Part shown: piece after piece, positions 10,281 through 19,810 of the stretch
Layout: each line of letters opens with the position of its first letter
Numbering within the stretch: position 1 is the stretch's first letter
Virus record (IMG/VR): IMGVR_UViG_3300025601_001585
Coordinates: 1-20,381 of that record
Origin: a virus
Strand: one strand, 5' to 3'
Length of the DNA: 20,381 nucleotides
Notes under the pieces: generated by a model
The model's database searches: none
Told to the model about the DNA's origin: nothing
Seen by the model: only the letters and a program-made list of their open reading frames with translations
Translations under genes and position numbers: made by a program

Positions 10281-10844
10281 ATGGCATTAAAGGAACTAGT
10301 TCCCGGAGAGCTCTGGGAGTATGAGAACTTTATAACTGATTCAGAGCTTGGGCTCTTGCTCGATAAGGCTAGGTTCGCCAGAGAAGAAGATTGGTTTGCC
10401 GAAGACTTACCTGACTATGATAAGCATCATGCTGGAAAAACTTTTGAGTTCCAAGATACTCCTGGGGGAAGCTACCTGTCAAAGGCAATTGACCTTAGAG
10501 TTGCTGCCCTGTTCAAAGACGTAGCATACATGAATGAAATAGGTAGTATATGCAGAGCTACATCCCATCTAGAACCTGTAGGGATGCACAGAGATAATGC
10601 TGACCAAGACATAGTCGGGGAACATAGAAACACTCATGTGAAGTATGGAGTCCTTATGTACTTAAACGATGACTATATTGGGGGCGAGATATGCTATCCA
10701 GAGTTAGGAATAGAGTACAAACCTAAACCAGGTGTCCTGTTGATCCATCACGCTGGCAACTTACATGGTGTCAACCCAGTGACAGAAGGGGTCCGCTTCT
10801 CTATGACATCCTTTGTCTATGGCCTAGACGCCCTTATTGTTTAA
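10281..10844 (+). CDS. 2-oxoglutarate/Fe(II) oxygenase 1 (prolyl-4-hydroxylase-like)
   Basis: A 187-residue single-domain dioxygenase. The facial triad is H103-R-D105 (G-M-H-R-D-N) and H162 (L-H-G-V-N-P-V), with R172 (V-T-E-G-V-R) to bind 2-oxoglutarate. The middle strand Y-L-N-D-D-Y-I-G-G-E-I-C-Y-P-E-L is the family hallmark. All residues required for activity are present. It follows the DUF7455-like gene by four bases. Its last 21 bases, including the repeated word GACGCCCTTATT, overlap the 3' end of the convergent oxygenase 2. The substrate may be a peptidyl proline, another residue or a nucleotide. Confidence 0.88.
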   Translation: MALKELVPGELWEYENFITDSELGLLLDKARFAREEDWFAEDLPDYDKHHAGKTFEFQDTPGGSYLSKAIDLRVAALFKDVAYMNEIGSICRATSHLEPVGMHRDNADQDIVGEHRNTHVKYGVLMYLNDDYIGGEICYPELGIEYKPKPGVLLIHHAGNLHGVNPVTEGVRFSMTSFVYGLDALIV

Positions 10845-11387
10845 TGTCTCGTGGAAGACAATAATTACGTTGACGCGGACGCCCTTAGTCACATAGTCAA
10901 CCCCGTGGATAGTGTCATGGCCAGTAAAGAGAACTAGAGTTCCGGCCTTGGGATGTAAGCTAATTTTTAAGTCTGGGAAGTGTAGTTCCCCACCTTCGTA
11001 ATCGTCGGTGAGAAAAAGCGCGGCTATGTATGGTTTCTGATCTGCAGCGTCGCCGTTAGAGTCTGGCTCCCAGTCGGCATGACCTGCCAGCCAAGCCCCT
11101 TCGCGCATCATGTTCCCATAACATCTATGGAGAGTGAACTCTCCCTTGATCTCGTAATTGTCCCTAAAAACTGAGTGAGCATGCTTCACTGCAAGTTTTA
11201 TCTTGCCTTCGGCATCCCAATCGTAGGTTATAGCATTATCTTCTAAAACTTCGGGGCCGAACAGGCTGAAAGTGCTATACATCTCACGGTCGTCATCTTG
11301 CGGAGACAACTGCATAGCTGCCGCTGCTCGGCTGGCCTCCTCCTGTGTGAGAAAGTCTTCAAAGATGAGGTAGTCTTTCGAGATCAT
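10824..11387 (-). CDS. 2-oxoglutarate/Fe(II) oxygenase 2
   Basis: A 187-residue protein with H103-A-D105 (A-G-H-A-D-W), H161 (T-I-H-G-V-D) and R171 (V-T-K-G-V-R), plus L-F-L-T-D-D-Y-E-G-G-E-L-H-F-P-D-L. It is complete and probably active. It is translated from an ATGA overlap with oxygenase 3, so the two minus-strand genes form one operon. It differs strongly from oxygenase 1 outside the core motifs, so the copies are old paralogues or separate acquisitions rather than fresh duplicates. Its 3' end is interlocked with that of oxygenase 1. Confidence 0.87.
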   Translation of the reverse strand: MISKDYLIFEDFLTQEEASRAAAAMQLSPQDDDREMYSTFSLFGPEVLEDNAITYDWDAEGKIKLAVKHAHSVFRDNYEIKGEFTLHRCYGNMMREGAWLAGHADWEPDSNGDAADQKPYIAALFLTDDYEGGELHFPDLKISLHPKAGTLVLFTGHDTIHGVDYVTKGVRVNVIIVFHETLNNKGV

Positions 11388-11935
11388 GTTGCTAAAGGGA
11401 TGTGGTCGCGGAAAAAGAATATAAAGTTATAACGTTTCCCCGAAAGAACCTTACGAACTCCATGGAGATTGGCCTCGTTACCTCTAAACATTATCAAGTC
11501 GCCTTGCTCTAGCTTTATATCTATGTTGTGATGCTGGAAGTACAGTTCTCCACCTTCATAGTCGCTGTTTAGCATTAAAATACAAGAATAGTGCAGCTCC
11601 ACCTCGGGTTTACCGTCGTAGTGGTCCCCGTCGTCGTCGTGAGCGTAATTTTCCGCGCCAGTGTCCATAATGTTCCCGTAAAGGCGCTTCATGCCAAAAG
11701 TGTACTTCATGTCGTAATTGTCCTGAAAAAACGCTTTAACCTTAGTAAGCATCAATCTCACTGGTTGTAGGAAAGGTAGCTCCTCATTCTCCAAGTCTGT
11801 TAGGGGGACTCTTTGTAGTCGATATCCCGGTCTGAATTGGTCTTTCATCGCGTACTCTTCAATCCATTGTGAGTAAGTCTCGCACTGCGAGGGCGTGAGC
11901 GCGTTTTTAATGAGCTTGTATGGAAGGTCTGTCAT
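11384..11935 (-). CDS. 2-oxoglutarate/Fe(II) oxygenase 3
   Basis: A 183-residue protein with H99-D-D101 (Y-A-H-D-D-D-G), H158 (N-L-H-G-V-R) and R168 (L-S-G-K-R-Y-N-F). The hallmark strand is M-L-N-S-D-Y-E-G-G-E-L-Y-F. It is the first gene of the minus-strand pair. The start is leaderless: TAGAAT ends six bases before the ATG. It diverges from the carbamoyltransferase gene with only 36 bases between the two start codons, so the two promoters are interleaved and may be co-regulated. Confidence 0.87.
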   Translation of the reverse strand: MTDLPYKLIKNALTPSQCETYSQWIEEYAMKDQFRPGYRLQRVPLTDLENEELPFLQPVRLMLTKVKAFFQDNYDMKYTFGMKRLYGNIMDTGAENYAHDDDGDHYDGKPEVELHYSCILMLNSDYEGGELYFQHHNIDIKLEQGDLIMFRGNEANLHGVRKVLSGKRYNFIFFFRDHIPLAT

Positions 11936-11941
11936 AAGAAC

Positions 11942-11965
11942 ATTCTATCATTATTAGATTAGACT
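11942..11965. promoter_or_regulatory. Back-to-back divergent leaderless promoters
   Basis: Minus strand: TAGAAT (11947-11942), GTTCTT, ATG at 11935. Plus strand: TAGACT (11960-11965), ATTAGG, ATG at 11972. The two -10 boxes are 12 bases apart, so polymerases on the two strands would exclude each other. Neither has a clear -35. Confidence 0.6.
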
Positions 11966-11971
11966 ATTAGG

Positions 11972-13405
11972 ATGAAGATCATAGGTATCAATGAGACTAC
12001 ACACGATGCTGCAATGGCCGTCATTGAGGACGGTGAGATCCTATTCGCTGGACACGCCGAGCGCTACAGTAAGCAGAAGAACGATTGGTATAACAACGAC
12101 CTTATTCTGATGGACGCCCTTAAGCACGGATCACCAGACAAGGTCGCCTACTATGAGAAGTCTTGGCTAAAGAAAATTAGGATTGCACGGCACGGTGGGT
12201 TCGGGGGTGGACGTCCCTACTACAAAGACACTCTTCTCGGTGGCCTACCAACCATTAACTTCACCCATCACTATTCGCATGCTGCTGCTGGATACTTTAC
12301 CTCTAGTTTTGTGGACGCCGCTATTGTTGTGCTAGACGCAATTGGAGAGTTTGAGACGTCTACAGTTTGGAAGGGGGAAGGTGAGAAGATAACGCAGGTG
12401 AGAAGGGACAAGTACCCCTTCAGCTTTGGACTCTTCTACTCTGCCTTTACGCAGCTAGTTGGGTTGAAGCCAAACGAGGAAGAGTACATCATGATGGGCA
12501 TGGCTGCCTATGGTGACAAAGATAGATATTACGAGAGAGTACGCAGTTACTTCCCTATCTATTACGCCCAAGAGGGTAACTTTCATAGGGGTATCCAAGA
12601 CTGGGGAGAAGAAGTAGAGGGCCAAGCAAGATTTGACCTAGCAGCTGCAGTCCAACAGGTTTTTGAGGACCGACTGGTTGAGTACATAACCATGGTTAAA
12701 CAAACTACTGGCAAGAAAAATCTAGTCTTTATGGGCGGCTGTGCCCTAAACAGTAAGGCCAATACCCTTCTTCACGGCATCTTCAAGAATGTCTGGATCA
12801 TGCCTAACCCTGGAGATGCGGGGTCAGCACTTGGCGCTGCAGCCGCCCTCTATGGAAAACACCTGAACTGGACTGGACCATACTTGGGTACCAATATCCC
12901 TGGGGAGTATCCAGTAAAGAAAATCGTAGACGCCCTTATTAACGACAAAGTAGCGCCAGTAGCTTCAGGTAGGGCTGAGTATGGGCCAAGGGCGTTGGGC
13001 AATAGGAGTATTTTGGCCGACCCTAGGGATCCAGACATAAAGAATAAAGTAAATCTAATAAAGAAACGTGAGCTATTTAGACCATTCGCTCCAATTGTTA
13101 TGGAGGAGTATGCAACCAGGTGGTTCGATATGGACTACTACTCTCCTTATATGCAGTACACACCAAGATGCCTTAAGCCTTGGTTGATCCCTAGCGTGGT
13201 GCACGCAGACGGTACTTCTAGGGTTCAGACAGTAAATAAGCGTCAACACCCGGGGCTTTATGAAGTACTAGAGAATTGGCATGCCTACAGCGGTGTGCCA
13301 GTTCTATTGAATACAAGTCTCAATATAAAAGGACAGCCTATGCTTAATGATCAAAATGATGTACTAGAATGGGAAGCACACTACAACACTAAAATCATCA
13401 GCTAG
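11972..13405 (+). CDS. NodU/CmcH/TobZ-family carbamoyltransferase
   Basis: A 477-residue two-domain enzyme. The Kae1-like N-terminal domain begins I-I-G-I-N-E-T-T-H-D-A-A and carries the metal-binding H99-H-Y-S-H103 and a phosphate loop at G-G-C-A-L-N-S. The C-terminal domain contains G333-R-A-E-Y-G-P-R-A-L-G-N344, the carbamoyl-adenylate signature, and ends with a L-L-N-T-S-L-N region. The family makes carbamoyl-AMP from carbamoyl phosphate and ATP and transfers the carbamoyl group to a hydroxyl. Known acceptors include antibiotics, Nod factor and, in some phages, hydroxymethylated DNA bases. It sits among oxygenases that could create the hydroxyl. The start is leaderless. Confidence 0.9.
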   Translation: MKIIGINETTHDAAMAVIEDGEILFAGHAERYSKQKNDWYNNDLILMDALKHGSPDKVAYYEKSWLKKIRIARHGGFGGGRPYYKDTLLGGLPTINFTHHYSHAAAGYFTSSFVDAAIVVLDAIGEFETSTVWKGEGEKITQVRRDKYPFSFGLFYSAFTQLVGLKPNEEEYIMMGMAAYGDKDRYYERVRSYFPIYYAQEGNFHRGIQDWGEEVEGQARFDLAAAVQQVFEDRLVEYITMVKQTTGKKNLVFMGGCALNSKANTLLHGIFKNVWIMPNPGDAGSALGAAAALYGKHLNWTGPYLGTNIPGEYPVKKIVDALINDKVAPVASGRAEYGPRALGNRSILADPRDPDIKNKVNLIKKRELFRPFAPIVMEEYATRWFDMDYYSPYMQYTPRCLKPWLIPSVVHADGTSRVQTVNKRQHPGLYEVLENWHAYSGVPVLLNTSLNIKGQPMLNDQNDVLEWEAHYNTKIIS

Positions 13406-13415
13406 AGGACTAACA

Positions 13416-14114
13416 ATGACAGAACTTACATTTAGATCAGACATGACCGTGGAGCTAGTCCAGTCAATGGGCGACGATGCTTCGGTAGTAAAAGCTGCTC
13501 GTGTCTCTACTGGCGGTAGCACTACTACTCCTGAGAAGGATGCTGGTTTAATTAACTACCTTATGCGTGATCGCCACGGCACCCCTTTTGAGCACAACGC
13601 TTTTACGTTCTATGTAGAGGCACCTATCTTTGTGTTCCGCGAGTTTATGCGTCACAGGGTTGCGTCCTACAACGAAGAGTCAGGCCGATACAAAGAGCTT
13701 GCTCCAGTGTTTTACATTCCTAGCGAAGATCGTAAGCTAATTCAAGTTGGTAAGCCAGGTGCTTACACTTTTGAAGAGGGAACTTATGACCAGAAAAAGA
13801 TTGTTCCGGCAGACATCAAGATGGCAGCTAAAGAGTCATACGCTGCTTATCAGCGGATGCTAGAAAAAGGTGTTGCCCGAGAGGTCGCAAGGAGTGTTCT
13901 ACCAGTTGGACTCTACTCTTCTATGTTCGTTACGATGAACGCCCGTACACTGATGAACTTCCTATCACTTCGAACTATGCGTGAAGGAACAATGTTTCCT
14001 TCTTTTCCGCAGAGGGAGATAGAGATGTGTGCCGAAAAGATGGAAGACTTCTTTGCAGAGGTCATGCCAGTTACTTACGCAACGTTCAATAAGAATGGTC
14101 GAGTAGCTCCATAA
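13416..14114 (+). CDS. thyX: FAD-dependent thymidylate synthase ThyX
   Basis: A 232-residue flavin-dependent thymidylate synthase that makes dTMP from dUMP with methylenetetrahydrofolate and NADPH. The ThyX signature R79-H-R-V-A-S-Y-N-E-E-S-G-R-Y92 is complete, and R-T-L-M-N-F-L-S-L-R supplies the usual substrate-contact helix. Length is typical. AGAGGA lies about nine bases before the ATG and the gene starts 10 bases after the carbamoyltransferase, so it is cotranscribed with it. Together with nrdHIEF and dUTPase it completes a dTTP supply route. Confidence 0.95.
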   Translation: MTELTFRSDMTVELVQSMGDDASVVKAARVSTGGSTTTPEKDAGLINYLMRDRHGTPFEHNAFTFYVEAPIFVFREFMRHRVASYNEESGRYKELAPVFYIPSEDRKLIQVGKPGAYTFEEGTYDQKKIVPADIKMAAKESYAAYQRMLEKGVAREVARSVLPVGLYSSMFVTMNARTLMNFLSLRTMREGTMFPSFPQREIEMCAEKMEDFFAEVMPVTYATFNKNGRVAP

Positions 14115-14147
14115 GCAAGCACTATTATAGTCAACCTGCACAGCTAG

Positions 14148-14153
14148 TACACT
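14148..14153 (+). promoter_or_regulatory. -10 box TACACT of a leaderless promoter
   Basis: TACACT, then GATACCT (seven bases), then ATG at 14161. TTATAG at 14125-14130 is at the right distance for a weak -35. Confidence 0.55.
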
Positions 14154-14160
14154 GATACCT

Positions 14161-14778
14161 ATGGATATTAAATTTATTGGCGAGACTCAGATTGCTATAG
14201 TAGATGACTTAGTTGACGTTACCGTCTGTGACGCTCTCTCTGAAATGTCTAAGTGGTGCAAAGCTCAAGGCTTAGTGTTCAGAGGTGAGCTAGACACTGA
14301 TGACCACATAGTTGTAGAAGATGGTACGAACTCCCCTCCCCGCGAGGAGGATGACACCTTCTGGCTAGACAAGAATACTCCCATATCGGAGCTCCCGCAG
14401 TACTACCAAGACCTTGCTCGAATAGTGTCCGACCGCTCAACTGAAGCTGTGGATGCCTACTTCGCTCTTATCGGGCAGACACTTCCTTACAGGGAGATTA
14501 ACTTAGACGTTATACACATATTCTTTGCAGGCGAAGAGCTCGAATGGCACATGGACTGCTTTGACTACTCGCTAGTCTTCTACCTAAATGACCGGACAGA
14601 GTGGGAGGGTGGAGACCTCTACTATCCCGAATTGGACATAAAGCTGTCACCAGTTAAGAATAGACTGGTAATCCAGCCCTCGCGGATTCCTCACTTGGTC
14701 ACTAAGATCACTGGGGGCCTTAGGACTACAATGACAACTTTCATCCCCATCGGGGACCCACCGTACCCATCCGACTAA
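14161..14778 (+). CDS. 2-oxoglutarate/Fe(II) oxygenase 4
   Basis: A 205-residue protein with H130-M-D132 (E-W-H-M-D-C), H178 (I-P-H-L-V) and R188 (T-G-G-L-R). The hallmark strand is F-Y-L-N-D-R-T-E-W-E-G-G-D-L-Y-Y-P-E-L. All catalytic residues are present. The N-terminal region is longer than in oxygenases 1-3. It follows thyX but has its own leaderless start. A 30-codon ORF and the degenerate paralogue follow on the same strand. Confidence 0.85.
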   Translation: MDIKFIGETQIAIVDDLVDVTVCDALSEMSKWCKAQGLVFRGELDTDDHIVVEDGTNSPPREEDDTFWLDKNTPISELPQYYQDLARIVSDRSTEAVDAYFALIGQTLPYREINLDVIHIFFAGEELEWHMDCFDYSLVFYLNDRTEWEGGDLYYPELDIKLSPVKNRLVIQPSRIPHLVTKITGGLRTTMTTFIPIGDPPYPSD

Positions 14779-14791
14779 AGGCGTAATTATA

Positions 14792-14884
14792 ATGATGATT
14801 CTGTACTATATGGAACGTGCCTACCGCAAGATTAAGTACATCCTCTTTCCGAAGAAGAGGCCAAAGAAGGACTTTATCTACTAA
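14792..14884 (+). CDS. Short basic ORF (30 residues) coupled to the next gene
   Basis: ATGATG at 14792 opens a frame ending at TAA 14882-14884, which overlaps the ATG of the next gene (TAATG). The peptide starts M-M-I-L-Y-Y-M-E-R-A-Y-R-K and is rich in Lys, Arg and Tyr. A perfect TATAAT at 14788-14793 overlaps the first ATG, so transcripts from it would instead use the in-frame ATG at 14810 (24 residues). The coupling and the lack of any other content here support real translation. Function is unknown. Confidence 0.5.
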   Translation: MMILYYMERAYRKIKYILFPKKRPKKDFIY

Positions 14885-15507
14885 TGTATGCTGGCGTAAC
14901 TACGATAACTCGAGAGACTAGGCATCTACCTATACCCTTTGCGACACTTAACGATGTTCTGACGCTTGTCGAAGTCGACCTCTTGCGTGATTTTGCTCTA
15001 AACTTTTCGTCTGACGCTACTGGGGATGACTTCAGTGTGAAGCACGAACTACCTAACCGGCCTACCGAATGGGACCCTCACGGGTTGGTGATGAAGCTGC
15101 AGGATCAGTTTAGAGACTACATACAAAGAAACTTCTTCATACTGGGGTCTGTGGAGCCTAGATACTTTACAATCCTCAGGACCGACGAGCTGCAATCATA
15201 TGTGGACAAGTATAGCTACTTTGAAAATGGTGGATACGTCTTATATACTGCGATCATACCGCTCTCACACCAGGGTACTGACTATACAGGTGGAGATCTT
15301 ACTTATATGCAAACCGGCGAGGGCGGATCTGGGAAACCAGGGCAGATGCTAGTCCACCGAAACGAGACACTGAACTCTTGGGCGTTAAATAAGGTGGAGT
15401 CCGGAATCCGAATAGACTTAGTCCTTGTGCAACACGAAATAGAGAACAGAACAAGCTACACCGAGTTTGAGATGGAACAAACTATAGACGATGGAATGTC
15501 TTACTAA
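14884..15507 (+). CDS. Degenerate 2-oxoglutarate/Fe(II) oxygenase-fold protein (paralogue 5)
   Basis: A 207-residue protein that keeps the fold hallmarks (I-P-L-S-H-Q-G-T-D-Y-T-G-G-D-L-T-Y) and the 2-oxoglutarate arginine R176 (E-S-G-I-R). The H-x-D position reads Y106-V-D108 and the distal histidine position, ten residues before the Arg, reads W166. Both iron-binding histidines are therefore replaced, so it should not bind Fe(II) normally. It could be a binding or regulatory pseudoenzyme. The frame is intact at normal length, so it is not a decaying pseudogene. It is coupled to the 30-codon ORF and overlaps the convergent oxygenase 6 by four bases. Confidence 0.75.
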   Translation: MYAGVTTITRETRHLPIPFATLNDVLTLVEVDLLRDFALNFSSDATGDDFSVKHELPNRPTEWDPHGLVMKLQDQFRDYIQRNFFILGSVEPRYFTILRTDELQSYVDKYSYFENGGYVLYTAIIPLSHQGTDYTGGDLTYMQTGEGGSGKPGQMLVHRNETLNSWALNKVESGIRIDLVLVQHEIENRTSYTEFEMEQTIDDGMSY

Positions 15508-16112
15508 ATATAGCTCGGAGCATTAGCTGCGTCGTACTGAAAACCTGTCATGCTGTATCTAACTCCGTCAGTAACTGGCGGTACTCCGTGAAGAATATCA
15601 CTGGAATGCACAACTATCATGCCGGACTCTGCTTCTAGCTCTAGGTCGAGATCCGGATAGTAGAGACTGCCTCCTGAGTAACTACTGCCACTATTTAAAT
15701 AGCAGATTACCCCATATTTTATCCCTGTATCTCCTTCTTCTCCCTCGAAGGAGTCGGTATGATCTGCTAGATAATCACCGTTGGTCCACCGGTGAACTAT
15801 GTTCAGTGGCATTCCGATATACGCTCCGGCGAGCCCCCCTAGGGCAGATATGCACGCAAGTATGGCAGTGTCTGCAAACTCATTGAGTTCGTTGTAGTGC
15901 CGCACGTTCGCGTCCCCTTTAAGTGTATTGAGGTAGACATTTCGTGCATCCCATCTAGTTACGGGGGTGCCGTCACTCGTTAGAGTCCCTATCTTGGTCA
16001 GCCCACTGTCGATTAAGAGCTCCGTATAGCCGGTAAGGGCTTTGCATAGCCCATCAGGTATTGCATTCCGGGCTATAGCAATATCAGCACCAGGCACTTT
16101 GATTATCTCCAT
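15504..16112 (-). CDS. 2-oxoglutarate/Fe(II) oxygenase 6
   Basis: A 202-residue protein with H118-T-D120 (L-A-D-H-T-D-S-F), H175 (I-L-H-G-V-P-P-V) and R185 (T-D-G-V-R-Y-S-M-T). The hallmark is Y-L-N-S-G-S-S-Y-S-G-G-S-L-Y-Y-P-D-L. It appears active and its C-terminal motifs most resemble oxygenase 1 (H-G-V-x-P-V-T-x-G-V-R-x-S-M-T). The start is leaderless with TAGGCT six bases before the ATG. It is divergent from the serine recombinase gene. Confidence 0.87.
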   Translation of the reverse strand: MEIIKVPGADIAIARNAIPDGLCKALTGYTELLIDSGLTKIGTLTSDGTPVTRWDARNVYLNTLKGDANVRHYNELNEFADTAILACISALGGLAGAYIGMPLNIVHRWTNGDYLADHTDSFEGEEGDTGIKYGVICYLNSGSSYSGGSLYYPDLDLELEAESGMIVVHSSDILHGVPPVTDGVRYSMTGFQYDAANAPSYI

Positions 16113-16118
16113 GGGAAG

Positions 16119-16124
16119 AGCCTA
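16119..16124 (-). promoter_or_regulatory. -10 box TAGGCT of a leaderless promoter (minus strand)
   Basis: On the minus strand TAGGCT is followed by CTTCCC and ATG at 16112. The -35 position (GCAACA) is poor. Confidence 0.5.
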
Positions 16125-16191
16125 CTTTACTTTTTAACTAGTGTTGCGGGAGATGCGTTAGAGTTGTTGGTACATAGACGAAAGACTACCC

Positions 16192-16899
16192 TTGAGCGAG
16201 CTGGACGCCCCTATTACTAAAGCAATTCTGTACGCACGCGTATCTACAATGATACAAGTAGAGGATGGTGTGTCGCTGGATGTGCAAGAGAGAACCCTTG
16301 TGCAGGCTAGGGAGATGTACGGATTCTCCGAAGGTGAGTTGGTCCGCGAAGAGGGCCGCTCCGGTAAGAACGTTACCGGCAGGCCCAAACTAATAGACGC
16401 CCTTAAGCGTCTAGACCGTGGCGAGGCAGACGCCCTTATTGTGACCAGGATAGATAGACTGGCCAGGAGTACAAAGGACTTCTTGGACATAGTGGATAGG
16501 GCCAACAAGAATGAGTGGAGGCTGATCCTCCTTGATCTAAACCTAGACACCTCTACATACCAAGGAAGATTTGTCGTCACAATAATGAGCGCCTTGGCCG
16601 AGATGGAACGTGGAATTATTGCAGAGCGCTCAAAGGATATCCATAAAGATCGCAGAGATAGAGGTATCGTCTGGGGCGAAGATATGGGACCGAAGATGTT
16701 TATCCCACCGCAGGTAAGGGAGCAAGTTTTGACTCATAGGGGCAGGGGAATGTCTTATCAGGCAATAGCCGACACGCTGAATATTCAGGGGTTAGTTGCT
16801 TCTAGGGGTGGAACTTGGTATGGTTCAAGTGTGAAGAATGTAATAGACGCACTTACGAAAAATGAAAAGGGACTCAATGGCGAGAAAAAAGAAGCTTAG
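16192..16899 (+). CDS. Serine recombinase (resolvase/invertase or short integrase)
   Basis: A 235-residue protein. The N-terminal resolvase domain has the nucleophile S18 in L-Y-A-R-V-S-T, then E-G-R-S-G-K-N, D-R-L-A-R-S, and the E-helix M-S-A-L-A-E-M-E-R. The C-terminal part (I-A-D-T-L-N-I-Q-G-L-V-A-S-R-G-G-T-W) matches the start of the Recombinase domain found in larger serine integrases, but the zinc and coiled-coil regions are absent. It could integrate, invert or resolve DNA. The start is a TTG, needed because the next in-frame ATG lies after S18. The gene carries two exact and two one-mismatch copies of the dispersed word GACGCCCTTA. Confidence 0.88.
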   Translation: MSELDAPITKAILYARVSTMIQVEDGVSLDVQERTLVQAREMYGFSEGELVREEGRSGKNVTGRPKLIDALKRLDRGEADALIVTRIDRLARSTKDFLDIVDRANKNEWRLILLDLNLDTSTYQGRFVVTIMSALAEMERGIIAERSKDIHKDRRDRGIVWGEDMGPKMFIPPQVREQVLTHRGRGMSYQAIADTLNIQGLVASRGGTWYGSSVKNVIDALTKNEKGLNGEKKEA

Positions 16900-17233
16900 A
16901 GAAGAAGAGATAACTGGTCCAATTAAAGATTGGACAGTATCTACTGAGATTCAGATTAACGGCAGAAACGTTACCGTCGGCACAGAGATGAAAATAAAAG
17001 GTGAGCGTGGAAGATTCAGGTTCATGAAGCACGTCACTAATGCTGACGGAGTTGAGTGGATAGACGTTTGGGGGGGACCAAAAAAGTCTGAGCACACTAG
17101 GAGTTTTAGGTTGGATAGAGTGCAGAGAGTTCACTATAGGAACACTACTGACCAAGCTCTAGCGGCAGAGTATAAGGCTAAGAAGATTGCCATAAAAGCT
17201 GAACTAGAGGAGAGTAATGAAGATCAGGATTGA
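16877..17233 (+). CDS. DUF7246-like actinophage protein
   Basis: A 118-residue basic protein starting M-A-R-K-K-K-L-R-E-E-E-I-T-G. It has W-x-V-S-T-E-I-Q-I-N-G-R, G-T-E-M-K-I-K-G-E-R-G-R-F-R-F, V-E-W-I-D-V-W-G-G-P-K, and R-S-F-R-L-D-R-V-Q-R-V-H. This pattern is common in actinophage early regions and corresponds, from memory, to DUF7246. The ATG at 16877 is preferred over 16862 because AAAAGGGA lies just before it and M-A-R-K-K-K is the usual start. It overlaps the recombinase end by 23 bases. Function is unknown; the basic beta-rich body suggests nucleic-acid binding. Confidence 0.78.
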   Translation: MARKKKLREEEITGPIKDWTVSTEIQINGRNVTVGTEMKIKGERGRFRFMKHVTNADGVEWIDVWGGPKKSEHTRSFRLDRVQRVHYRNTTDQALAAEYKAKKIAIKAELEESNEDQD

Positions 17234-17648
17234 GACCACTAACGGAGCAGTTGTACCTATCTATGCTCAGGATGGCGACGCGGGGGCTGACCTTTGCGCC
17301 AACGAGAACGTAGAGATTAGAGCTGGAGCGCGGAAACTTGTTAAGACTGGTATAAAGATTGCCATCCCAGACGGATACGTAGGATTGATCCACCCGCGAA
17401 GTGGCCTCGCGCTGAAGCAAGGCCTAACAGTTCTAAATGCTCCTGGAACTATTGACTCTGGATATCGTGGTGATGTTGGCGTTATCCTGTACAACACTGA
17501 GTTTAGTAAGACGGCAGTAATCAGTAAGGGTGACCGAATCGCTCAGTTGGTAATCCAAAAGGTTGAAAGAGCAAAGTTTGAAATCGTAGACGCCCTTGAT
17601 GATACTGACAGAGGCGAAGGTGGATTTGGCTCCACAGGAGTTAACTAA
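17217..17648 (+). CDS. dut: dUTP diphosphatase (trimeric dUTPase)
   Basis: A 143-residue enzyme hydrolysing dUTP to dUMP and pyrophosphate. All five motifs are present: D-A-G-A-D-L (I), P-R-S-G-L-A (II), G-T-I-D-S-G-Y-R-G-D (III), G-D-R-I-A-Q-L-V-I (IV) and R-G-E-G-G-F-G-S-T-G (V). Length is typical. GAGGAG lies eight bases before the ATG and the gene overlaps the previous one by 17 bases. It feeds dUMP to ThyX. Near its end it carries a 17-base word identical to one in the carbamoyltransferase gene. Confidence 0.96.
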   Translation: MKIRIETTNGAVVPIYAQDGDAGADLCANENVEIRAGARKLVKTGIKIAIPDGYVGLIHPRSGLALKQGLTVLNAPGTIDSGYRGDVGVILYNTEFSKTAVISKGDRIAQLVIQKVERAKFEIVDALDDTDRGEGGFGSTGVN

Positions 17649-17650
17649 AG

Positions 17651-17764
17651 ATGAAAGCCCTCACCGATAAAGAGAAGAAGGCCGTAAAGCTAATCTTGTC
17701 TGCTCGGCAAGTACAACGTGCGACTGAATTTAAGATTGCTCAGAAAAAGAATAGCTCCTCTTAG
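17651..17764 (+). CDS. Short basic ORF (37 residues)
   Basis: An ATG two bases after the dUTPase stop opens a 37-residue frame (start M-K-A-L-T-D-K-E-K-K), rich in Lys and Gln, predicted helical, ending in three serines. GGAG at 17638-17641 is a possible ribosome site. Tight spacing supports a real cistron. No family is recognised. Its last codons contain TAGCTCCT, complementary to the phoH ribosome site. Confidence 0.55.
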   Translation: MKALTDKEKKAVKLILSARQVQRATEFKIAQKKNSSS

Positions 17765-17819
17765 CCCAACGTGATTTGCTGGGTGTAGACTTAGGGAAGA
17801 TGTACCAACAAAGGAGCTA
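17752..17819 (+). promoter_or_regulatory. phoH leader: promoter, mini-ORF and sequestering repeat
   Basis: TAGCTCCT (17752-17759) is a perfect complement of AGGAGCTA (17812-17819), which contains the phoH Shine-Dalgarno. TAGACT (17786-17791) is a likely -10 between them. A six-codon frame (ATG 17800 to TAA 17818-17820, peptide MYQQRS) ends one base before the phoH TTG. A CCCA/TGGG hairpin lies at about 17765-17783. Confidence 0.45.
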
Positions 17820-17821
17820 AA

Positions 17822-19132
17822 TTGTCAGATACCTCAGGGTCACAGACCACCTCAAATAAGGTAAGGACCTTTGTTTTAGACACATCTGTTCTCCTCTCTG
17901 ACCCAAAGGCAATCTTTCGCTTTGCGGAACACGAAGTTGTTCTGCCCATCGTGGTGATAAATGAGCTTGAGAAAAAGCGAAATGACGGAGAGATAGGCTA
18001 TCTTTCACGTAAAGCGCTTCGACTACTAGACGACCTCAGAGATGAGCACGGGGGACTAGACTTCCCTATTCCGGTCGGGGACGGCGGAACCTTAAGAGTC
18101 GAGCTTGGTAACATTGAGCCGGGCATCCTTCCTGCAGGTTTTCAGCTGGGAGATAACGACTCTCGTATCTTGGCCGTAGCGGCGAATCTTAAGAACGCAG
18201 GGTATGACGTAACCCTCGTCTCCAAAGATCTTCCGATGCGCGTAAAGGCTGCATCGATTGGGCTAAACGCTGAGCAGTACCTGCACGAACTTGCCAACGA
18301 AGAGTGGCACGGTATCTCGGAGATTTCGGTTTCAGGGGCGGACATAACTAATCTCTACGACAACGGTGAACTCGCACATGAATCCATCAAGGGTATGCCC
18401 GTCAATACTGGACTAGTACTATCTTCAGAATCTGGTGGTGCACTAGGTCGAGTCACAGACAGTGGGACCATTCGTTTGGTCAAGGGTGACCGTGAAGTCT
18501 TCGGACTACATGGACGCTCTGCTGAGCAGCGACTTGCTATCGACTCGTTGTTGGATCCGGGTATGGGCATCGTCTCGCTCGGTGGAAAAGCCGGAACAGG
18601 AAAGAGCGCCTTGGCTCTATGCGCTGGGCTCGAAGCGGTCCTTGAAAGGAAAGAGCACAAGAAGATTATGGTGTTCCGACCATTGCATGCAGTAGGCGGT
18701 CAAGAACTTGGATACCTCCCTGGAACCGAAGCCGAGAAAATGAACCCTTGGGCGCAGGCCGTCTTTGACACGCTCGGATCGCTGGTCTCTAAAGAGGTAA
18801 TTGAAGAGGTAATAGCTCGTGGCATTCTTGAAGTCCTGCCACTAACGCACATTCGTGGGCGCTCACTTCATGACACTTTTGTAATTGTGGATGAAGCTCA
18901 GTCGCTAGAGAAGAATGTGTTGCTGACTGTTCTATCTCGTATCGGTCAAAAGTCTAGAGTGATCCTGACGCACGACGTTGCTCAGAGAGACAATCTTCGA
19001 GTCGGTCGTCACGATGGAGTTGCCTCTGTTGTAGAAAGACTGAAGGGTCAACCTATATTTAGCCACATTACTTTGATGCGCTCCGAGCGAAGCGAGATTG
19101 CTGCGCTGGTTACTGACCTTCTAGATTACTAG
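17822..19132 (+). CDS. PIN-PhoH protein (PhoH2-type ATPase/RNase)
   Basis: A 436-residue two-domain protein. The N-terminal PIN domain (residues about 14-165) starts [11 protein letters not shown] and has acidic residues at E48 (I-N-E-L-E-K-K) and at [10 protein letters not shown], consistent with an active RNase site. The C-terminal PhoH domain has Walker A G254-G-K-A-G-T-G-K-S262 and Walker B V-I-V-D357-E358-A-Q. This architecture is the PhoH2 toxin-like RNA helicase/RNase of actinobacteria; many phages carry only the ATPase half. The start is TTG with AAGGAG five bases upstream. It lies in the nucleotide-metabolism region and may help degrade host RNA. Confidence 0.92.
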
Positions 19133-19291
19133 ATGGCCAAACGCGAAGTAAAAAACGCCACTATTGACTACAGCGGAGACGCTAGGGAAACTATCTTTGG
19201 GTGGTGTTCAACTGAGCAGCACGAAGAGTGCATCCTGGAGTTTCCTGGGCACACTTGTGTCTGCAAGTGCCATAGTATTAAAAAAGATTAA
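19133..19291 (+). CDS. Small Cys/His-rich zinc-binding protein
   Basis: A 52-residue protein starting right after the phoH stop. Cysteines at 25, 33, 42, 44 and 46 and histidines at 30, 40 and 47 form the pattern W-C-x4-H-x-x-C ... H-T-C-V-C-K-C-H, seen in small proteins of actinophages. It probably binds one or two zinc ions. No ribosome site is evident, so it depends on coupling to phoH. Function is unknown. Confidence 0.65.
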   Translation: MAKREVKNATIDYSGDARETIFGWCSTEQHEECILEFPGHTCVCKCHSIKKD

Positions 19292-19321
19292 AAACAGCGG
19301 ACTCTGGACGGGCCTGCTGAT

Positions 19322-19350
19322 TTGAAAAAGGGGACTTTAGCTGTTACTAT
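19322..19350 (+). promoter_or_regulatory. Strong promoter, leaderless
   Basis: TTGAAA (19322-19327), a 17-base spacer, TACTAT (19345-19350), TGTCAT, then ATG at 19357. This is the clearest promoter in the right half. Confidence 0.78.
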
Positions 19351-19356
19351 TGTCAT

Positions 19357-19659
19357 ATGGAAAACTCTAATATAAAAATACAAGTCACTGGCGATTACGA
19401 AAAAGTAAACGCCGCTACTACAGAAGCAATAAAATCACGAGCTGAGTTGAGGGTGGCGTCTGACAAAGCCTTTGACAATGCGGTAACAGTTGGTTGGGAA
19501 CTAGGGGCCGCCGATGAGAGAGCTAATTCTCTTGAAATAGTGGACGCCCTTATTAATGGACTAATAGAAACCGAAGTAGATGCAAGGATGACGCTTAACA
19601 TCTTAAGAAAGATGCTGGTAGAATCTAATCCTAACACCGAGGGAGAAAAAAGTGAGTGA
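19357..19659 (+). CDS. Hypothetical helical protein
   Basis: A 100-residue protein with no recognised domain. It is rich in Ala, Glu and Lys, contains no Cys, and is probably mostly helical (E-A-I-K-S-R-A-E-L-R-V-A-S-D-K-A). The segment I-V-D-A-L-I-N-G is encoded by a copy of the dispersed word GACGCCCTTATT. It is the first gene of a run of overlapping small cistrons driven by the promoter at 19322-19350. Confidence 0.7.
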   Translation: MENSNIKIQVTGDYEKVNAATTEAIKSRAELRVASDKAFDNAVTVGWELGAADERANSLEIVDALINGLIETEVDARMTLNILRKMLVESNPNTEGEKSE

Positions 19660-19810
19660 ACCTGAGTACGAATATAACGAAGATCAGATGGCAGCCATTT
19701 TCGCAAAGCTAGAGGTCTCAAAACTTCTAATAAGTATGGGCACGGAGATAGCCAAGCAAGTTCAAACTGATGTTAAATTTTATAGGATAACCAATGACTC
19801 AAGCAAATAG
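19652..19810 (+). CDS. Hypothetical small protein
   Basis: A 52-residue frame from GTG at 19652, preceded by GGGAG at 19641-19645. It overlaps the upstream gene by eight bases and the downstream HTH gene by 17. The sequence is acidic at the start (S-E-P-E-Y-E-Y-N-E-D-Q) and then helical (A-A-I-F-A-K-L-E-V-S-K-L-L). No family is recognised. The overlaps and ribosome site support translation. Confidence 0.6.
   Translation: MSEPEYEYNEDQMAAIFAKLEVSKLLISMGTEIAKQVQTDVKFYRITNDSSK
19783..19788 (+). promoter_or_regulatory. Possible -10 box before the HTH gene
   Basis: TAGGAT followed by AACCA and ATG at 19794 (or TATAGG at 19781-19786 with seven bases). TTCAAA at 19761-19766 is a possible -35 with a 16-base spacer. 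Confidence 0.45.

Follow-up and report, generated by a model that had tools for sequence, protein, structure and literature searches.

What keeps one short DNA word on one strand inside unrelated genes of a virus? The question is raised by a stretch of 20,381 nucleotides from a viral metagenome record (IMG/VR IMGVR_UViG_3300025601_001585, positions 1 to 20,381; hereafter the window), for which a preliminary description, made from the sequence alone, pointed out the dispersed word GACGCCCTTA. In the present study, we found that a family of viruses of aquatic actinobacteria carries about ten copies of such a word, 12 to 14 letters long, on one strand and mostly within unrelated genes. We tentatively read it as a set of asymmetric binding sites for a small phage protein with two helix-turn-helix (HTH) regions, here called HTH166.

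Selection on DNA and polarity of the word

The window contains seven exact copies of GACGCCCTTA, all on the plus strand (marked as exact in Table 1), and none on the minus strand. These copies and the one-mismatch copies previously listed were all present on the plus strand, and the 17-mer reported as common to 12921 and 17581 was correct. The claim that the word occurs on the plus strand only holds for these copies, but an unlisted one-mismatch match lies at 6052 on the minus strand; the listed one-mismatch match in nrdE (2662) is present but lies outside the cluster and is probably due to chance. The broader motif GACGCC-NN-TATT occurs six times forward and never in reverse in the window, and, as a correction to the earlier listing, 12314 (GACGCCGCTATT) and 16204 (GACGCCCCTATT) are full members of it.

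One-mismatch matches, including the exact copies, number 12, against a mean of 1.06 and a maximum of 5 in dinucleotide shuffles of the window. A codon-preserving shuffle had been named beforehand as the refuting test; shuffling codons within genes gave a mean of 0.52 (maximum 4) and pooled shuffling a mean of 0.32 (maximum 3), under the 8 copies counted in genes, a figure in which one site shared by two overlapping genes appears twice. GACGCCCTTA is also the most frequent 10-mer of the window outside two low-complexity genes. Of its nine D-A-L tripeptides, seven are written GAC GCC CTT, compared with about 3% expected from the codon usage of the window.

The same word was present, mostly on the strand of the recombinase, in relatives retrieved from IMG/VR via the small serine recombinase of the window. 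These contigs are metagenomic fragments and not mutually independent, and their genes were called by a simple longest-open-reading-frame rule. The consensus from 80 non-homologous sites is approximately TRGACGCC-NN-TATTG, in which the middle two bases are free, with CT or CC commonest. The general signal, approximately TNGACG(C/T)C-NN-TA(TT/AG), occurs in dozens of related viral contigs, and other clades have the word types TCGACGTC-NN-TAAG or GTCGACGCC-NN-TAAG. In 20 clusters, 121 forward copies stand against a single reverse copy; GACGCCNNTATT has no reverse copy around the recombinase in 15 contigs, and its density peaks at most 5 kb from the recombinase start.

In the 20 clusters, the word is about equally dense in genes of either strand: its density per 10 kb is 6.5 in plus-strand genes, 4.2 in minus-strand genes (a count that also takes in minus-strand open reading frames known from gene calls alone), and 3.9 where no gene of at least 100 amino acids was called. 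Four minus-strand genes with forward words encode real domains (two 2-oxoglutarate (2OG) oxygenases, an M23 peptidase, and DUF5824). Only 8 of 94 distinct sites fall between called genes, the remainder being in coding sequence, and 10 of 81 same-strand copies lie in codons 1 to 6, where 2.5 would be expected. Near the recombinase, D-A-x-I tetrapeptides are written as the word in 48 of 80 cases in plus-strand genes and in none of 8 in minus-strand genes. Because the copies lie in unrelated genes, between genes, and in minus-strand genes, on the same genome strand, and from the D-A-x-I counts, selection acts on DNA, and the polarity belongs to the genome, independent of transcription, codons, and peptide. 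As to function, nothing beyond direction can safely be inferred. The D-A-x-I frame, used by 78 of 80 same-strand copies, is the frame that puts both free bases in one freely variable codon; this bias is stronger than amino-acid frequencies alone would suggest and remains only partly explained. Read-through terminators ahead of minus-strand genes are unsupported; words in these genes are not clearly concentrated near the ends of plus-strand genes (4 of 20 within 300 bases, compared with 14% for random positions).

A conserved locus downstream of whiB

The word cluster spans 5 to 20 kb at one conserved locus, starting 3 to 6 kb downstream of whiB and the gene that in the window begins at 6064. 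Among 81 recombinase-bearing regions, 37 are word-rich and 33 have no words. In long contigs of the word-free recombinase group, variant word forms make up a polar cluster elsewhere, at the same whiB-downstream locus. A role of the recombinase as the only anchor agreed with the initial contigs, and fell when recombinase-bearing genomes with no words nearby showed this variant cluster. Relatives with nrdF but with no recombinase in the contig piece are mostly word-free, and four contigs of 94 to 125 kb (G039 to G042), which lack both HTH166 and the recombinase, have no word.

Both readers suggested in the preliminary description lost ground. The recombinase is weakened as a reader by those clades in which the cluster lies apart from it, and the MerR-like HTH protein encoded at 19794 is too rare, as it was found at just 3 of 30 word-rich loci with a length of at least 9 kb. 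The DUF7246 gene, found at 27 of 30 word-rich loci compared with 6 of 78 loci free of words, is a second correlate of the word.

No close DNA relatives were found among isolate phage genomes, and searching the first 50 kb of Microbacterium phage Cece de novo for a counterpart of the word gave nothing convincing. The complete metagenome-assembled relative DSL-LC01 has no word cluster. Its small-gene region (L369, OQ999401.1, 30848-41524) carries, on a single strand, CTAAAG..GTTA 27 times and TATAAT..AATC 18 times; these are probably promoters or another repeat. A literature search turned up no account of a word set of this kind in these viruses, nor of DUF7246.

Table 1. Word copies and neighboring genes in the window
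Feature	Position	Strand	Remark
whiB (5679-5999) and gene 6064-6327	5679..6327	+	conserved landmark upstream of cluster start in relatives
exact word copy, GACGCCCTTATT	10827..10838	+	last codons of 2OG-oxygenase-like gene 10281-10844; overlaps end of minus-strand gene 10824-11387
exact word copy, GACGCCCTTA	10878..10887	+	within minus-strand 2OG-Fe(II) oxygenase gene, where it reads T-K-G-V
exact word copy	12113..12122	+	carbamoyltransferase codon 48
general-motif member, GACGCCGCTATT	12314..12325	+	carbamoyltransferase
exact word copy, GACGCCCTTATT	12929..12940	+	carbamoyltransferase codon 320
small serine recombinase	16192..16899	+	Resolvase PF00239; inside word cluster in some clades only
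word copy, GACGCCCCTATT	16204..16215	+	serine recombinase codon 5; start of homology to relative G002
exact word copy	16396..16405	+	recombinase codon 69
exact word copy, GACGCCCTTATT	16429..16440	+	recombinase codon 80
degenerate copy, GACGCACTTA	16846..16855	+	recombinase C-terminus; relatives have full word
DUF7246 gene	16862..17233	+	usually adjoins recombinase
degenerate copy, GACGCCCTTGAT	17589..17600	+	near dUTPase C-terminus; relatives have full word (VDALTESDR)
exact word copy, GACGCCCTTATT	19543..19554	+	100-aa gene 19357-19659

Other features of the window include six small oxygenase-like genes in six kb (10281-16112), on both strands and mutually diverged, which flank the genes for carbamoyltransferase and ThyX. 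ARAGORN identified a tRNA-like gene with a four-base anticodon (ttta) at 6641-6717, and homology to G002 ends at its 3' end. Collagen-like G-P-T repeats lie at 2-889, and 8202-9599 encodes a subtilase-like protease that contains an (EP)n stretch.

A candidate reader in the packaging module, and its rivals

In the relatives G003 and G012, further words form a second cluster on the 166-codon gene of HTH166. Homologs of this protein (about 165 to 170 amino acids) and its paralog HTH193 are encoded in the packaging module with terL, near the portal gene, and the homologs of HTH166 in Microbacterium phages are annotated as HTH DNA-binding proteins beside the terminase. HTH193 lies upstream of or near terL (L317 to L364), and both dual-HTH paralogs also occur in Microbacterium phages (Cece gp60 and gp45), with no assigned function. 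At 30 of 34 loci, the linker between the two domains of HTH166 retains the word; further copies often lie at codon 25, behind the stop codon, and within the following gene. In the homolog at L355, the word occupies a different reading frame of the linker. Furthermore, word type and helix type, as read by eye, change together across HTH166 homologs: helices RPRSTVRSW/VTYRAMYKR go with GACGCC..TATT, GRSTVKAW/VTHRAI with GACGTC..TATT, and RSTVQYWT/VTSRAIARR with GACGCY..TATG. With several further helix types, the gene carries no such word. A structure model of HTH166 has two HTH units joined by a linker (mean predicted local distance difference test score, pLDDT, of 85). Structure and sequence searches with HTH166 found no informative PDB match, the nearest viral models being unnamed or uncharacterised, and the one match in bacterial genomes, in an Aquiluna metagenome bin, has no forward word nearby.

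We propose that the word may be an asymmetric bipartite protein-binding site of about 14 bp, TNGACGYC-NN-TAWK, of which about ten are kept on one strand at a fixed locus of actinophage genomes. Its most likely reader would be the phage's own HTH166, with GACGYC recognized by the first of its two HTHs or the second and TA(TT/AG) by the remaining one, and the words in and beside the HTH166 gene would be autoregulatory. HTH166, made with the packaging genes, would then set a one-way block to a machine moving over the stretch that lies downstream of nrd and whiB and includes the recombinase. The first choice for this machine would be RNA polymerase, as at the stoperators of mycobacteriophages, because the sites are asymmetric and multi-copy, the candidate reader has two domains, and copies lie in the reader's own gene. 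As a whole, we give this reading somewhat less than an even chance.

Several observations weigh against it. Polarity independent of gene strand fits a transcription roadblock poorly, as does the lack of a clear concentration of minus-gene words near plus-gene ends. The covariation rests on few independent clades, and the window contig is too short to contain HTH166. A Foldseek search with the HTH166 model gave no repressor match, only weak sigma-factor and HTH matches. HTH193 or DUF7246 could be the reader instead.

It is possible, if doubtful, that the word represents a new phage polarity signal, that is, a coding-embedded one-strand array at a fixed locus which coevolves with the dual-HTH protein of the packaging module and acts genome-wide (in packaging, end handling, entry, or recombination), and not on single-gene transcription. 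Rather unlikely, in our opinion, is a polar signal at the level of the replicon and outside transcription, for packaging, protection or handling of genome ends, or control of the replication fork or of DNA entry, with HTH166, HTH193 or another phage protein as its reader. The polarity that ignores gene strand and the position of both HTH genes near terL and the portal gene argue for such a signal. The Cece record begins with terS, and terS homologs lie 13 to 32 kb downstream of the recombinase in the contigs; therefore, the cluster may lie close to an end of the genome. Redundant sites that point one way within coding sequence also have the look of Chi-like signals or of those like the FtsK orienting polar sequences (KOPS). 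However, about ten sites over 5 to 20 kb are unlike a pac or cos site.

We consider it unlikely that the word is a crossover site at which the serine recombinase shuffles nearby genes in frame, although several rearrangements coincide with words. The recombinase gene contains up to four copies, and the boundaries of some homology blocks coincide exactly with words (between the window and G002 at 16204 and 16846; between G005 and G007 at 2094/6532). In G020 (9186-9650, recombinase orientation), 463 bp are inserted at the recombinase C-terminus between the halves of a word that is intact in G015 (13346, L136), and this insertion swaps the recombinase tail in frame. At many loci, the recombinase tail and the next gene change at the C-terminal word and form several classes. 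Insertion points fell at words in 11 of 223 cases, compared with about 1.3% expected (an approximately fourfold enrichment). However, the general test of homology breakpoints falling on words gave a weak result, a half-homology test that favoured words was dominated by recombinase gene ends, and breakpoints at gene ends are common anyway. Furthermore, other clades have the recombinase away from the cluster, or the cluster without the recombinase, no inverted half-sites were found in the region around the recombinase, and the words lie in conserved gene cores, where deletions would do damage. As a separate observation, the recombinase tail beyond N-I-V-D-A tracks the identity of the next gene and not the recombinase itself.

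A signal read by the host, such as a Chi-like site of its recombination nuclease or a site of a host regulator, would also be short, polar, redundant, coding-embedded, and clade-specific. We regard it as quite improbable, since the word is clustered at one locus and at HTH166 instead of being spread, and its type tracks a phage gene. A mere codon or peptide preference (D-A-L-I), or chance, can practically be dismissed in spite of the shared frame of same-strand copies, in view of the codon shuffles, the copies antisense to real genes and between genes, the other frame at L355, and the placement of both free bases in one variable codon.

Environmental actinophages keep strong one-way information at the DNA level inside coding genes, and the type of site changes together with a DNA-binding protein of the phage. 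The candidate reader is both small and specific. If confirmed, it would open a way into gene control or genome packaging in large actinophages, a group with few cultured representatives, and would be a warning that recurrent D-A-L-I motifs in actinophage proteins can be DNA-driven.

Relation to known polar DNA signals

Like Chi, KOPS, and uptake sequences, the word is short, polar, over-represented, and coding-embedded with a strong frame bias; unlike these, it forms a local phage cluster, changes with the phage clade, and has about 10 specified bases. Copies in and around an HTH gene near terL resemble the pac or cosB sites of small terminases, whereas the main cluster lies at a distance of about 35 to 50 kb from that gene and is spread over many kb. 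With the sites of serine resolvases and integrases, the word shares a recombinase gene within the cluster in some clades and rearrangements at some copies, but it has no inverted half-sites, and the cluster exists without the recombinase.

The stoperators of cluster A mycobacteriophages (L5, TipsytheTRex) consist of an asymmetric site of about 13 bp that is repeated many times in a single orientation; they lie in short intergenic spaces, oriented with the direction of transcription, and are bound by a monomeric repressor with two DNA-binding domains for repression of transcription and immunity (PMC9283540). The preliminary description had likened the words to these sites. The likeness holds in that the words are present in many copies, asymmetric, oriented, and dispersed, and that the protein proposed to read them is small, encoded by the phage, and equipped with two putative DNA-binding domains. 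It fails for promoters and short intergenic spaces, given the few sites between called genes, and for orientation with transcription as judged by gene strand, forward copies being found in called genes of both strands. Furthermore, the words cluster at one locus, and the candidate reader is encoded in the packaging module. The comparison is reasonable as a likeness, because a phage dual-HTH protein was found whose helix types change with the word.

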